This document shows positions 8,652-13,984 of a stretch of DNA of 64,000 nt, one piece after another; positions within the stretch are counted from its first letter, which is position 1, and every line of letters starts with the position of its first letter. Below the pieces are notes generated by a model. That model was given only the letters and a program-made list of their open reading frames with translations, was not told the DNA's origin and did no database searches. Made by a program: the position numbers and the translations under genes. This DNA is from Pseudomonas sp. S06B 330 (GTDB lineage Bacteria; Pseudomonadota; Gammaproteobacteria; Pseudomonadales; Pseudomonadaceae). The stretch spans positions 3,592,501-3,656,500 of the forward strand of contig NZ_CP088149.1 in NCBI RefSeq assembly GCF_002845275.2, given 5' to 3'.

Positions 8652-8726
8652 TCGCGTCGAAATCCTCTGCCCGGCCTGCTACCCTTGCGCCCGTCCGCTA
8701 AGCCGCCTGTCAGAAAAGGAGTTCCC

Positions 8727-9119
8727 ATGACAACGCTCACCGTCCGCGACGAATCAGTCTCAGGGGAAGTGTTTGAAACGTTCGCCCTGCACTTTCCTAG
8801 CGACAACATCACCGTACGCCAGTTAATCCGTGAGCGTATCCATCAGGAAGTCCAACTGCAGGCTCAGGACACTTGCCGTCGTCAACGCCTGGTGATCCCC
8901 GATCCGCTGGAGGTCGCCCTCAACGGTGTGCGCAAGACCCCTGAGCATGAGCCGGTGGACTGGCGCAAACAGGTCGACATCGCCTACCAGGCGTTCGAAC
9001 GCAATGGCTTCGTCATTCTCTTTGATGAGCACCAGGCCGAAAGCCTCGACGAAACCCTGACCATCCGCCATGACAGCGTGGTCAACTTCATCAAACTGAC
9101 ACCGCTGGTGGGAGGCTGA
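8727..9119 (+). CDS. Ubiquitin-like (beta-grasp) small protein with C-terminal Gly-Gly
   Basis: A 130-residue protein with a strong ribosome site (AAAAGGAG, 5 bases before the ATG). Residues 3-45 read as strand-strand-helix in the ubiquitin order: TLTVRDES, then VFETFALHF, then PSDNITVRQLIRERIHQEV. This parallels the two strands and the 'psDtienvk' helix of ubiquitin. After a long insert, residues 92-130 (NGFVILFDEHQAESLDETL, then VVNFIKLTPLVGG) look like the last strands and end exactly in Gly129-Gly130, as in ubiquitin, ThiS, MoaD and prokaryotic modifiers. The next gene starts 3 bases after its stop. I know no function for it; the beta-grasp assignment is my reading of the pattern, not a search result. 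No E1, E2 or JAB-type gene is in the window. Confidence 0.7.
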   Translation: MTTLTVRDESVSGEVFETFALHFPSDNITVRQLIRERIHQEVQLQAQDTCRRQRLVIPDPLEVALNGVRKTPEHEPVDWRKQVDIAYQAFERNGFVILFDEHQAESLDETLTIRHDSVVNFIKLTPLVGG

Positions 9120-9122
9120 ATC

Positions 9123-11798
9123 ATGGCACTCGAACAACTTCAGGCGTTTGTCCTCGACCTCCCGCAAACCGACCTTGGCGTGGCTGAGCACATCGGCCCG
9201 GACGGCTATCCGCTGCTGGCCACCAGCGAACTGCGCCACGAACACCAGTTGATCAGCGAACTGCTGCCCTTGCTGCAAGACATCCACGGCCGTCCCGAGG
9301 AAATACTCGCCGCCCTGGGCAAACTGCCGGCCATTGCCACACTGGCACAACCGCAACAGCGTATGCGTCTGGCCCTGGCGCTGATCGAGCGGATCGTTGC
9401 CTACGATGGCGGCCTGAGCAGCGCCAGCATCACCTATGGCTTTGCCCATAGCTTCGACGACGGGGTCATGCCGACGCTGGTCAGTCTGTTGATGCAAAGC
9501 GATGAGGTGCTCGAACAACTGGCTGTCCCGGTACTGCAGTGGATCACCGGCTACCGTTTCGGCTATTACAACGTTGTGCCGACCCTGACGGTGATCAACT
9601 GGATCAGTACCCAGCCATTGCCTCAACTGCCTGAAGCTCTGCGCGACCTGCTCAGGGTATTGCGCAGCCAATGCACCGATCCCGACCAGTACGGTAATGC
9701 CGTCATAGTCGGCAATTATGGCGAACACCTGGCAACCAAGCTCGATCCACTGTTGGGCGACGGCATCTGGCAGGTGCTTGTGCCCTGCGAACACTGGACG
9801 CAGTTGGCCTTCAAGGACGTCGAAACGTTACCTGCTGATAGCCAAGCTCAGTGGCTGGACCTGTTGCGTCACGCCGGTACTGCCACCTCGGCGCGGCCTG
9901 CGGCAAAGTGGCTCAAGCACGCTCAATCCTTAGTGCACAAGGTCGGGGAAGCGCCGCTACGCTCTGCGCTGTTGCGCTGGTTCGCCAGCGTTGATAGCGG
10001 TCGCACCGGGGCGCTGTTGTTTGACCGCTGGCACAGTGTCGATGATCGCGCGCGTATGAGCCAAGGCAATGCCACAGTTTTGCGCGGCTTGCTGTGGATC
10101 ACTCCAATGCTGGCCGACAGCGAACTGACACGCGCCCTGACCCGGGTTGCCTTGAGTGGCTACCGCAAAGTCCGCGGCATTGGCGCGCGGGCGCCCAAGG
10201 TGGGCAATGCGGCGGTGTTCGCTCTGGCATCAATCCCGACCCGTGAAGCAGTCGGCCAGTTGGCCGTGCTCAAGGCGCGGGTCAAGCTCAGCAGCGCACA
10301 AAAAGAGATCGAAAAAGCCTTCACCAGTGCCGCCCAAGCGCTGCAACTGCCACGCGATCAGATCGAAGAACTCGCTGTTCCCACCTATGGCCTGGAGCAG
10401 GTGGGCCTGCGCCGGGAAACCTTTGCCGAGGGCGCCTACATTGCCGAGGTCAGCGTTGATGGCAAGCAGGCAACGCTGAACTGGTTCCACGCTGACGGTA
10501 CGCCCCAGAAATCGGTGCCCGCCAAGGTCAAGACCGAACACACAGAGGCACTCAAAGACCTGCAGGCTGCGGTAAAAGACATCAGCGCCATGCTCCCGGC
10601 CCAGGCGGCGCGACTGGACACCTTGTTCCTGCTGGAAAAGCACTGGCCCCTCGCAGAGTGGCAGGAACGTTACCTCGACCACCCGCTGATAGGCACCCTG
10701 GCGCGTCGATTGATCTGGACGGTCAGCGAATCCGGCCAGGACCGTGCGCTGATCTTCAACGACGCTTGCCTGCAAACCCTCGATGGCAGCATCGTCATGC
10801 CCTCCAGCGAGGCGCAGGTACGCCTCTGGCACCCCATCGGCCGCCCCCTGGAAGAGATTGTTGCCTGGCGCGAGCGCATCGAAGCCTTGCACATCACCCA
10901 ACCGTTCAAGCAGGCACACCGTGAGGTCTACCTGCTGACCGACGCCGAGCGTCACACTGCGACCTACTCCAACCGCTTCGCCGCCCATATTCTGCGCCAG
11001 CACCAGTTCCATGCGCTGGCCACCGGCCGCGGCTGGCGCAATCAACTACGCCTGCTGGTTGACGACAGTTACCCTGCGGCCAGCCGCGAACTGCCGACCT
11101 GGGGCCTGCGGGCGGAGTTCTGGATCGAGGGTGTGGGTGACAATTTTGGAGTCGACACCAACGATTCTGGCACCTTCCTGCACCTGAGCACTGACCAGGT
11201 GCGCTTCTACCCCATCGATGCCGAGCAACGTACTGCGCCTGCCGCTGGCGGTGGTTACACCCCAGAGCATTGGCGTAATGCCGAAGATGCCGCACCGCTG
11301 CCTTTGACCCAGGTGCCAGCGCTGGTGTTGAGCGAAGTCATGCGCGACATCGACCTGTTTGTCGGCGTGGCGTCGCTGGCCAATGACCCGCAATGGGCCG
11401 ATGGCGGGGCCGACGGCCGCCTGCGCGACTATTGGCGACAAGAGGCGTTTGCAGAACTGGGCGCTACAGCGCAAACCCGCAAGCAACTGCTGGAAAAACT
11501 GCTACCGCGCATGACCCGCCTCAAAGGCAAATGGTCCCTGCGCGGACGCTTCCTGGAAGTCACTGGCAAATTGCGCAGCTACAAAATCCACCTGGGTTCG
11601 GGCAACATCCTGATGCAGCCGAACGATCAGTACCTGTGTATCGTCCCTGACGCCAAGGCGCGCACCCAGGCCATGCCGCACTACCTGCCGTTTGAAGGTG
11701 ACACGCTGTTATCGATCATCCTCTCCAAAGCCTTGCTGCTGATCGATGACGACAAAATCAGTGATCCGACCATCACCGATCAGATAGCCGAGCGTTGA
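9123..11798 (+). CDS. DUF4132 (MolR-like) large protein
   Basis: An 891-residue cytoplasmic protein. The long N-terminal part is helical and repeat-like. The region from about residue 560 carries the DUF4132 landmarks: VRLWHPIGRPLEEIVAWRERI, QPFKQAHREVYLLTDAE, YSNRFAAHILRQHQF and GWRNQLRLLVDDSYP. It ends with a conserved terminal block (SYKIHLGSGNILMQPNDQYL, and ILSKALLLIDDDKISDP). Proteins of this kind are often called molybdate metabolism regulator after E. coli MolR, but no biochemical role is settled. It starts 3 bases after the Gly-Gly small protein, so the two are surely co-expressed. Its 3' end overlaps the convergent ampR gene by 26 bases. Confidence 0.85.
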   Translation: MALEQLQAFVLDLPQTDLGVAEHIGPDGYPLLATSELRHEHQLISELLPLLQDIHGRPEEILAALGKLPAIATLAQPQQRMRLALALIERIVAYDGGLSSASITYGFAHSFDDGVMPTLVSLLMQSDEVLEQLAVPVLQWITGYRFGYYNVVPTLTVINWISTQPLPQLPEALRDLLRVLRSQCTDPDQYGNAVIVGNYGEHLATKLDPLLGDGIWQVLVPCEHWTQLAFKDVETLPADSQAQWLDLLRHAGTATSARPAAKWLKHAQSLVHKVGEAPLRSALLRWFASVDSGRTGALLFDRWHSVDDRARMSQGNATVLRGLLWITPMLADSELTRALTRVALSGYRKVRGIGARAPKVGNAAVFALASIPTREAVGQLAVLKARVKLSSAQKEIEKAFTSAAQALQLPRDQIEELAVPTYGLEQVGLRRETFAEGAYIAEVSVDGKQATLNWFHADGTPQKSVPAKVKTEHTEALKDLQAAVKDISAMLPAQAARLDTLFLLEKHWPLAEWQERYLDHPLIGTLARRLIWTVSESGQDRALIFNDACLQTLDGSIVMPSSEAQVRLWHPIGRPLEEIVAWRERIEALHITQPFKQAHREVYLLTDAERHTATYSNRFAAHILRQHQFHALATGRGWRNQLRLLVDDSYPAASRELPTWGLRAEFWIEGVGDNFGVDTNDSGTFLHLSTDQVRFYPIDAEQRTAPAAGGGYTPEHWRNAEDAAPLPLTQVPALVLSEVMRDIDLFVGVASLANDPQWADGGADGRLRDYWRQEAFAELGATAQTRKQLLEKLLPRMTRLKGKWSLRGRFLEVTGKLRSYKIHLGSGNILMQPNDQYLCIVPDAKARTQAMPHYLPFEGDTLLSIILSKALLLIDDDKISDPTITDQIAER

Positions 11799-12708: not shown

Positions 12709-13984
<1,276 letters not shown>

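Follow-up and report, generated by a model that had tools for sequence, protein, structure and literature searches.

What becomes of a small protein that ends exactly at two glycines, and why should its gene stand directly in front of a DUF4132 gene? The question is raised by a locus of Pseudomonas sp. S06B 330, studied here in a window of 64,000 nucleotides (the whole stretch of DNA analysed; contig NZ_CP088149.1, positions 3,592,501 to 3,656,500 of the forward strand), to which coordinates refer unless a record is named. On the + strand, positions 8727-9119 encode a protein of 130 amino acids that ends ...FIKLTPLVGG and then TGA, and that is called a ubiquitin-like protein (Ubl) here from its reading frame, translation, beta-grasp model, fold matches and family. 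After a three-base gap, a second + strand frame (9123-11798) encodes a protein of 891 amino acids with strong Pfam matches to DUF4132 (PF13569, E 2.2e-51, 174.8 bits against a cut-off of 27) and DUF7737 (PF24879, E 1.6e-35). The original prediction had picked out both frames, the Gly-Gly end and the three bases between them, and the open reading frames, translations and the PF13569 match confirm that observation. It had further supposed a minimal modifier system whose activating enzyme (E1) is encoded elsewhere.

The pair, its tail and its fold

In all 25 pairs that were read, DUF4132 lies directly downstream of the Ubl. Matches to a Ubl profile were obtained in 13 of 199 genomes of the genus Pseudomonas and in 3 of 398 genomes drawn by phylum, with the window's genome in both sets, and each of the 15 distinct genomes carries DUF4132 directly after the Ubl and on the same strand. 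P. wadenswilerensis, Novosphingobium and Nonomuraea bring the loci located through the Ubl to 18, and DUF4132 adjoins it in every one, which bears out the expected co-occurrence in other genomes. Another seven pairs, from three genomes and four Deinococcus records, came to light by way of DUF7737 or DUF4132 and, because of that route, show gene order and not independent co-occurrence. The pair spans several bacterial phyla, Deinococcus included, and in the protein lists four Ubl and DUF4132 matches agree in the length of their longest contig (150553; 5931563; 25234; 22175), which suggests that they lie on one contig. Distances among Ubl proteins follow those among their DUF4132 partners (r = 0.977 over 22 pairs), in agreement with joint descent. 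The first in-frame DUF4132 starts range from 11 nucleotides inside the Ubl gene to 54 nucleotides downstream; in one of the seven extra pairs (L073) the DUF4132 frame as called extends 136 nucleotides back into the Ubl gene, with an ATG 8 nucleotides past the stop. In six close Pseudomonas pairs (window 9111-9125; L001-L004; L031) the genes share one frame, with TGA and one or two codons between them. A fusion by stop-codon read-through is not thought to be general, since the spacers of other pairs break the shared frame.

The tail was followed in 203 Ubl sequences, made up of the window's own, 111 relatives from a search of 5.8 billion proteins, and the new ones among 120 listed of 756 relatives from a profile search. 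Among these matches listed, 202 of 203 end exactly in PLVGG; the only relative extended past Gly-Gly (P0273, by eight residues) may represent a precursor that is processed, or an error in the sequence. The sample could be biased, as relatives were retrieved by shared five-letter words and PLVGG is one of them, and genomes were therefore searched with a profile as well. The Gly-Gly end was present in 25 of 25 genome-read pairs (22 pairs and three further Deinococcus), a count that is not fully blind because the search profile includes the tail and that has many close Pseudomonas relatives in it. Conservation of the Gly-Gly end, which had been proposed as a check, was thus found in both samples, against a background of 7 Gly-Gly ends in 377 other open reading frames of at least 150 amino acids in the fetched stretches. 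Elsewhere in the tail of the 25 pairs the third-from-end residue may be V, I, M, K, Q or A, and the proline can be Gln or Ala; the glycine codons themselves differ between pairs (GGAGGC, GGTGGC, GGCGGT, GGCGGA, GGTGGG, GGGGGT and others). An exposed Gly-Gly at the very C-terminus, as in ubiquitin-like modifiers and sulfur carriers, is therefore a property of the Ubl. Names among the matches listed take the family to Bacteroidota, Armatimonadetes, Tepidisphaeraceae and Longimicrobiaceae.

The AlphaFold2 model of the Ubl opens with strands b1 (residues 2-9) and b2 (15-23), a short strand (27-29) and helix a1 (30-51), continues with an insert helix (60-66), a further helix (79-91) and strands at 95-99, 110-112 and 118-123, and closes with an unstructured tail, of which residues 128-130 are disordered and leave the end free. 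The strand-strand-helix start that had been read from the sequence reappears in the model, with VFETFALHF as b2 and TVRQLIRERI leading into a1. Fold matches by Foldseek and VIA include MOCS2A, ubiquitin, SUMO and NEDD8, with human MOCS2A, the MoaD counterpart, as first Foldseek row and among the best by VIA. A ubiquitin/MoaD fold with a free tail is predicted, so that the comparison with ubiquitin and MoaD that had been called for gives a beta-grasp and not some other fold, and the Ubl can provisionally be counted among the ubiquitin-like beta-grasp proteins.

At the level of sequence the family stands apart. The Ubl has no Pfam match, and its profile matches that of MoaD at 2.8% probability, where MoaD and ThiS match at 97.5%, so that profile similarity does not place it in the MoaD/ThiS family; one weak ThiS match (PF02597, E 0.05) was found among 125 family members. 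One weak NCBIfam match (E 0.0075), to a nickel regulator, and envelope glycoprotein and DinJ matches (E 0.03 or worse) were judged to be chance. The PADLOC defence models gave no match up to E 1 for the Ubl or its partner, none of 53 pattern matches on viral contigs was confirmed, and the phage records held no DUF4132 match. Invariant core residues of the family are R37, E41, A86, Q103, L107, F121 and L124.

The partner branch and a candidate active site

The reading frame, Pfam and a model divide the partner into an N-terminal helical-repeat part and a C-terminal alpha/beta part, with DUF4132 at residues 459-638 (10497-11036, + strand) and DUF7737 at residues 783-888 (11469-11786, + strand) by Pfam. 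The model joins Ubl and DUF4132 as if by read-through (predicted local distance difference test 76.9, predicted template modelling score 0.53) and was used only for the architecture of DUF4132; with a link of only two residues between the proteins and no error matrix, it cannot give the position of the Ubl. The VIA rows listed for it cover mainly residues 1-128 and 165-551, and Foldseek of the whole model gave no row under E 0.001. The predicted alpha/beta part had no fold match in that whole-model search, from which novelty of fold is not claimed.

DUF4132 is a large family (6227 of 7996 scored candidates match, and it is present in 11 of 396 phylum genomes), and the Ubl belongs to a part of it. 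Among 36 DUF4132 genes read for context, 18 have an adjoining Ubl and 18 do not, and no Ubl was found beside the latter in the fetched loci. In a tree of the 36 cores, which left out L059, L060, L072-L074 and the Deinococcus rows and in which some long branches come together (those of L020 and L054, for example), the 18 partnered rows group with unpartnered L054 (support 100/99), and the other 17 unpartnered rows form the second group. The link to DUF4132 that had been foreseen thus stands for one branch, the one with DUF7737, and falls for DUF4132 in general. DUF7737, which exceeds its cut-off in 3 of 369 and 4 of 385 genomes in two surveys, follows the partnered branch: six of six DUF7737 genes with long frames have a Ubl, no Ubl was seen with a fragment (G1068) or with a sub-threshold broken copy (G791), and 14 control genomes, E. 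coli among them, gave no DUF7737 match.

Unpartnered relatives are of more than one kind. Several are followed by a gene for 366-379 amino acids, with an AAA_5/MoxR match in the one scanned (L032). These MoxR-associated proteins share the DUF4132 domain with the partner and have a HEAT match in the one scanned (L032), but they differ in adjoining AAA and DUF5682 genes (L032, L062), also VWA and SWIM genes in L062, in having no DUF7737 in that scanned protein, and in that no Ubl was found. The operons of these long, Ubl-less proteins with AAA and DUF5682 genes lie at L062:1-10317, where VWA and SWIM are added, and L032:6643-13900. On a Streptomyces plasmid, in surroundings that include transposase and integrase genes, about 2.6 kb separate an annotated Pup gene (L063:9172-9390) from a partial DUF4132-like gene. 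Among the matches listed, the closest relatives of the window's DUF4132 protein include a large class of 1100 amino acids that has both domains and a different N-terminus. A Nonomuraea copy of this class with DUF7737 (L060:5471-8776) has no Ubl in the fetched stretch, and the same record has a Ubl pair elsewhere (L020). No convincing hidden Ubl domain was found in the 120 listed DUF4132 matches, this class included (best E 0.13).

Alignment of the partners draws attention to one motif in DUF7737, YKIHLGSxxxxxxPxxxYLCIVP. It contains His823 (11589-11591, + strand), a candidate active-site residue that is invariant in 20 of 20 partnered rows, and Cys839 (11637-11639, + strand), a candidate for accepting the Ubl tail. 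All 25 partnered proteins have Cys839 (20 aligned rows, three further Deinococcus, and L002 and L003), as do 120 of 120 DUF4132 relatives among the matches listed and six of six sampled proteins of the 1100-residue class. Six unpartnered proteins have an alignable C-terminus; Cys839 is kept in two (L060 and the fragment L076) and missing in four (Acetobacter L059, Pseudomonas L054, Burkholderia L080 and the broken L075), and the other unpartnered rows aligned are without the whole region. This distribution is a lead and not a test, as the unpartnered cases are few and partly related. His570, in the DUF4132 domain, is shared by all aligned rows, 20 of them Ubl-partnered and 13 unpartnered.

Activating enzymes and the Deinococcus copy

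That the E1 would be distant from the pair agrees with what the genomes hold: none is encoded beside it, and a ThiF-family E1 exceeds its cut-off elsewhere in 18 of 18 Ubl genomes searched, a weak test given that a match was also obtained in 12 of 14 control genomes (over the cut-off in 11). In the window's genome the ThiF-family match with the best score is at G000:C1:4967745-4968452, in a frame of 259 amino acids. Within 16 kb of the Ubl, neither an E1 nor a JAB match over the cut-off was found in the 18 genomes. The nearest E1 is in G073, where E1 and JAB matches lie side by side (G073:C1:405619-407116) about 17 kb from the pair, and none is closer in the other 17. G1086 and G1186 have one ThiF match apiece, which must be the E1 used there, if one is used. 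One of 10 scanned neighbours has a sub-cut-off ThiF match, in a shikimate dehydrogenase-like protein.

Bacterial E1-E2-JAB Ubl operons (PMC1779556) and CBASS Cap2/Cap3 (PMC10097602) are likewise bacterial and have partner genes nearby, and the same C-terminal glycine is found on the Ubl in the former and on the target in the latter (these and the papers cited below are used for the parts covered, to which statements about them are limited). The pair differs in having no E1 or JAB over the cut-off within that distance, nor an E2 among the 10 scanned neighbours, where alone it was sought; it does not have the same-operon E1, with E2 and usually JAB, of Bub, Bil and CBASS-type operons. The window's genome has a separate CBASS-like operon (L113:2523-6809; G000:C1, about 984-988 kb) with a CD-NTase, an E1-E2 protein, a JAB protein and a SAVED-TM effector, and also two ThiS-family genes, one ending PVTGG like MoaD.

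In the window the two genes form a separate unit, since the nearest scanned flanks are an AraC-type regulator upstream and, on the opposite strand, a LysR-type regulator whose end overlaps that of the DUF4132 gene. A Shine-Dalgarno-like site, AAGGAG, can be read ahead of the Ubl gene (8716-8721, + strand). Beyond the pair, 12746-13984 encodes a serine beta-lactamase-family protein (PF00144, E 2.1e-85).

A better studied copy is found in Deinococcus radiodurans. On a plasmid record (L061) the order is thioredoxin TrxC, Ubl, and a DUF4132-DUF7737 protein with a DUF5724 N-terminus; the Ubl matches the profile at E 4.7e-17 and ends ...LTALAGG, and its partner begins 2 nucleotides later. From order, annotation and published gene order these are presumably DR_A0164, DR_A0165 and DR_A0166, the latter two being direct homologs of the window pair, a Gly-Gly-ended Ubl and then DUF4132-DUF7737. 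The gene order drA0165-drA0166 was already published, and the two are described as one putative operon, whose expression increases strongly when DdrO is depleted and shows no rise in irradiated irrE mutants; mitomycin C raises the level of tagged DRA0166 protein in the wild type and not in the irrE mutant (PMC8533742). That paper places a DdrO motif at -83, whereas none was found for DR_A0165 according to PMC9650054; the 20-base motif as printed does occur at L061:1795-1814, where it precedes the start codon of the Deinococcus Ubl by 62 bases. Zhou et al. (PMC9650054) describe DR_A0165 (SEP068184) as a stress peptide that is specific to Deinococcus, induced by both gamma rays and hydrogen peroxide, with a MoaD- and SAMP1-like predicted fold (5MPO and SAMP1 3PO0 are given as matches), and the word 'ubiquitin' occurs 0 times in the main text. 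The wide family and the terminal Gly-Gly are in neither paper, in the parts covered. A JAMM protease of D. radiodurans is involved in hydrogen peroxide resistance and a Ubl system there has been speculated upon, with A0165, A0166 and DUF4132 unmentioned in the parts covered (PMC8832034). Downstream of the Deinococcus pair, at 1.8-5.5 kb and on the other strand, lie modA, a thiazole synthase gene and thiS (L061:8917-12694), which were not seen in three other Deinococcus tables.

The fate of the tail

The reading favoured here, tentatively and with a real chance of being wrong, is that a housekeeping E1 would activate the Ubl tail, which would then pass to DUF4132-DUF7737, likely for attachment to proteins under stress. 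The Ubl would act as a MoaD/SAMP-like beta-grasp carrier whose Gly-Gly tail is adenylated by a MoeB/ThiF-type E1 encoded elsewhere; the activated tail would pass to the dedicated partner, probably at Cys839, with His823 and His570 as other conserved candidates, and the helical-repeat part may hold the Ubl or the target. The partner would then be an unconventional transferase that replaces E2/E3, and the likely output would be Ubl attached to putative target proteins, switched on by oxidative or DNA-damage stress. The computed basis consists of the predicted fold, the Gly-Gly constraint, the gene pairing, the conservation of the cysteine and the lack of a nearby E1, from which we infer a modifier-system role for the pair; the literature adds, for the Deinococcus copy, its induction by stress and a phenotype under stress. 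The minimal modifier system of the original prediction is in part upheld, by conserved tail, fold, pairing and an E1 elsewhere; what does not hold is the general link to DUF4132, and L060 has no Ubl beside it. A bolder version, doubtful as a whole, is a Ubl conjugation system of two genes that has no E1, E2 or JAB of its own; DUF4132-DUF7737 would be a new transferase class (Cys839/His823) that borrows a MoeB-type E1 from cofactor biosynthesis in an oxidative and DNA-damage response that includes the DdrO regulon of D. radiodurans. Archaea offer a precedent for the use of one E1 and an unconventional partner in connection with oxidants, namely Ubl modification by the E1 UbaA with MsrA under mild oxidant (PMC5587910). 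SAMP with UbaA and MsrA thus resembles the pair in its Ubl, unconventional partner enzyme and link to oxidative stress, and uses UbaA as its single E1; unlike it, the Ubl here, a putative modifier, is genetically tied to its partner, DUF4132-DUF7737.

Several points weigh against this reading. A covalent product is not known, and the profile comparison with MoaD fails. The only 1100-residue copy with readable context, L060, has no Ubl alongside though its class keeps Cys839, and so the cysteine may have another role. Nor is a deconjugase linked to the pair: all 18 genomes have JAB matches, over the cut-off in 16, yet many of these matches are weak and could be RadC-like. In D. radiodurans the DR_A0165 deletion is more resistant to hydrogen peroxide, not less (PMC9650054). 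Finally, as 157 co-immunoprecipitated proteins are common to N- and C-terminally tagged DR_A0165 (PMC9650054), these contacts either need no free Gly-Gly or are unspecific.

Protein modification is placed slightly ahead of sulfur transfer, the alternative that survives best, which is less likely but still to be taken seriously. Here the Gly-Gly end would be converted to a thiocarboxylate, as in MoaD, ThiS and CysO, and DUF4132-DUF7737 would spend the sulfur on a cofactor, tRNA or repair reaction. The genes are arranged as for MoaD-MoaE and ThiS-ThiG, in which a carrier gene stands beside one dedicated sulfur-using enzyme and the E1 is encoded elsewhere. Like the Ubl, the MoaD/ThiS carriers (PF02597) have the predicted fold and the free Gly-Gly tail, and MOCS2A leads the fold matches; the local profile alignment sets the PLVGG end on the PVTGG end of MoaD, at the 2.8% probability given above. 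Unlike them, the Ubl has 130 amino acids with a helical insert and no Pfam match, and its partner is DUF4132, not MoaE or ThiG. MolR of E. coli, which we take to be a DUF4132 protein, also points towards sulfur transfer, though it concerns another DUF4132 branch, as the control genomes including E. coli have no DUF7737 match. Its tie to molybdate is cited in PMC8533742, where DUF4132 function is called unknown and molybdopterin guessed. Further support comes from the binding of thioredoxin Trx1 to DR_A0165 and the 5MPO and SAMP1 matches (PMC9650054), and from modA, the thiazole synthase gene and thiS near the D. radiodurans pair. However, the window's genome already has its two ThiS-family genes, moeA and moeB do not follow the operon's response in D. 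radiodurans (PMC8533742), and no recurring cofactor or tRNA gene was found among 10 neighbours in six loci or in the three other Deinococcus tables.

Unlikely, but next in order, is a non-covalent subunit: the Ubl would be permanently bound, with its tail plugged into a narrow groove of the partner and the glycines kept for fit. Strict pairing and joint descent would suit such a complex, the seven invariant core residues could mark a fixed interface, and the co-immunoprecipitated set survives C-terminal tags (PMC9650054). A plug should allow Ala, Ser or an extension somewhere, yet an extension was seen in one of 203 listed sequences and in none of 25 loci. A good deal less probable again is a brake, in which the Ubl would restrain an active DUF4132 enzyme in the manner of an inhibitor and be released under stress. 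The Ubl-first order and short spacing are in keeping with this, and so are the raised hydrogen peroxide survival on Ubl deletion, with DR_A0166 expression unchanged, and the greater sensitivity of the overexpressing strain (PMC9650054). Loss of an antitoxin should be felt, but the deletion had only a minor growth effect by the authors' account (PMC9650054); a brake also leaves the Gly-Gly constraint unexplained, and PADLOC matched neither protein. That Gly-Gly is chance, or a by-product of a Shine-Dalgarno site (GGAGG) for DUF4132, is hardly credible: the window's codons GGA GGC (9111-9116, + strand) do look like such a site as well, 6 nucleotides before the DUF4132 start, but 7 of 22 pairs keep Gly-Gly with the first in-frame start 28-54 nucleotides off and codons without GGAGG, such as GGC GGT and GGC GGA, which rules out that origin, and 25 of 25 loci stand against the background of 7 in 377.

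In this account the Ubl family and its partner are new, and the style of chemistry is a known one. A link of a Ubl family to DUF4132 was not found in open-licence literature listings, which is not proof of absence, and the pair is not described in the sections covered of the 2006 prokaryotic Ubl survey (PMC1779556). DUF4132 proteins are widespread, and a Ubl with a constrained Gly-Gly gives them a concrete question, namely the fate of the tail and whether it is met at Cys839. In D. radiodurans the question can be tested at once, as a Ubl mutant, a regulator and a stress phenotype exist. Should conjugation be shown, the modification systems of bacteria would gain one that is served by a housekeeping E1, and the view of SEP068184 as a peptide of Deinococcus only would have to change.

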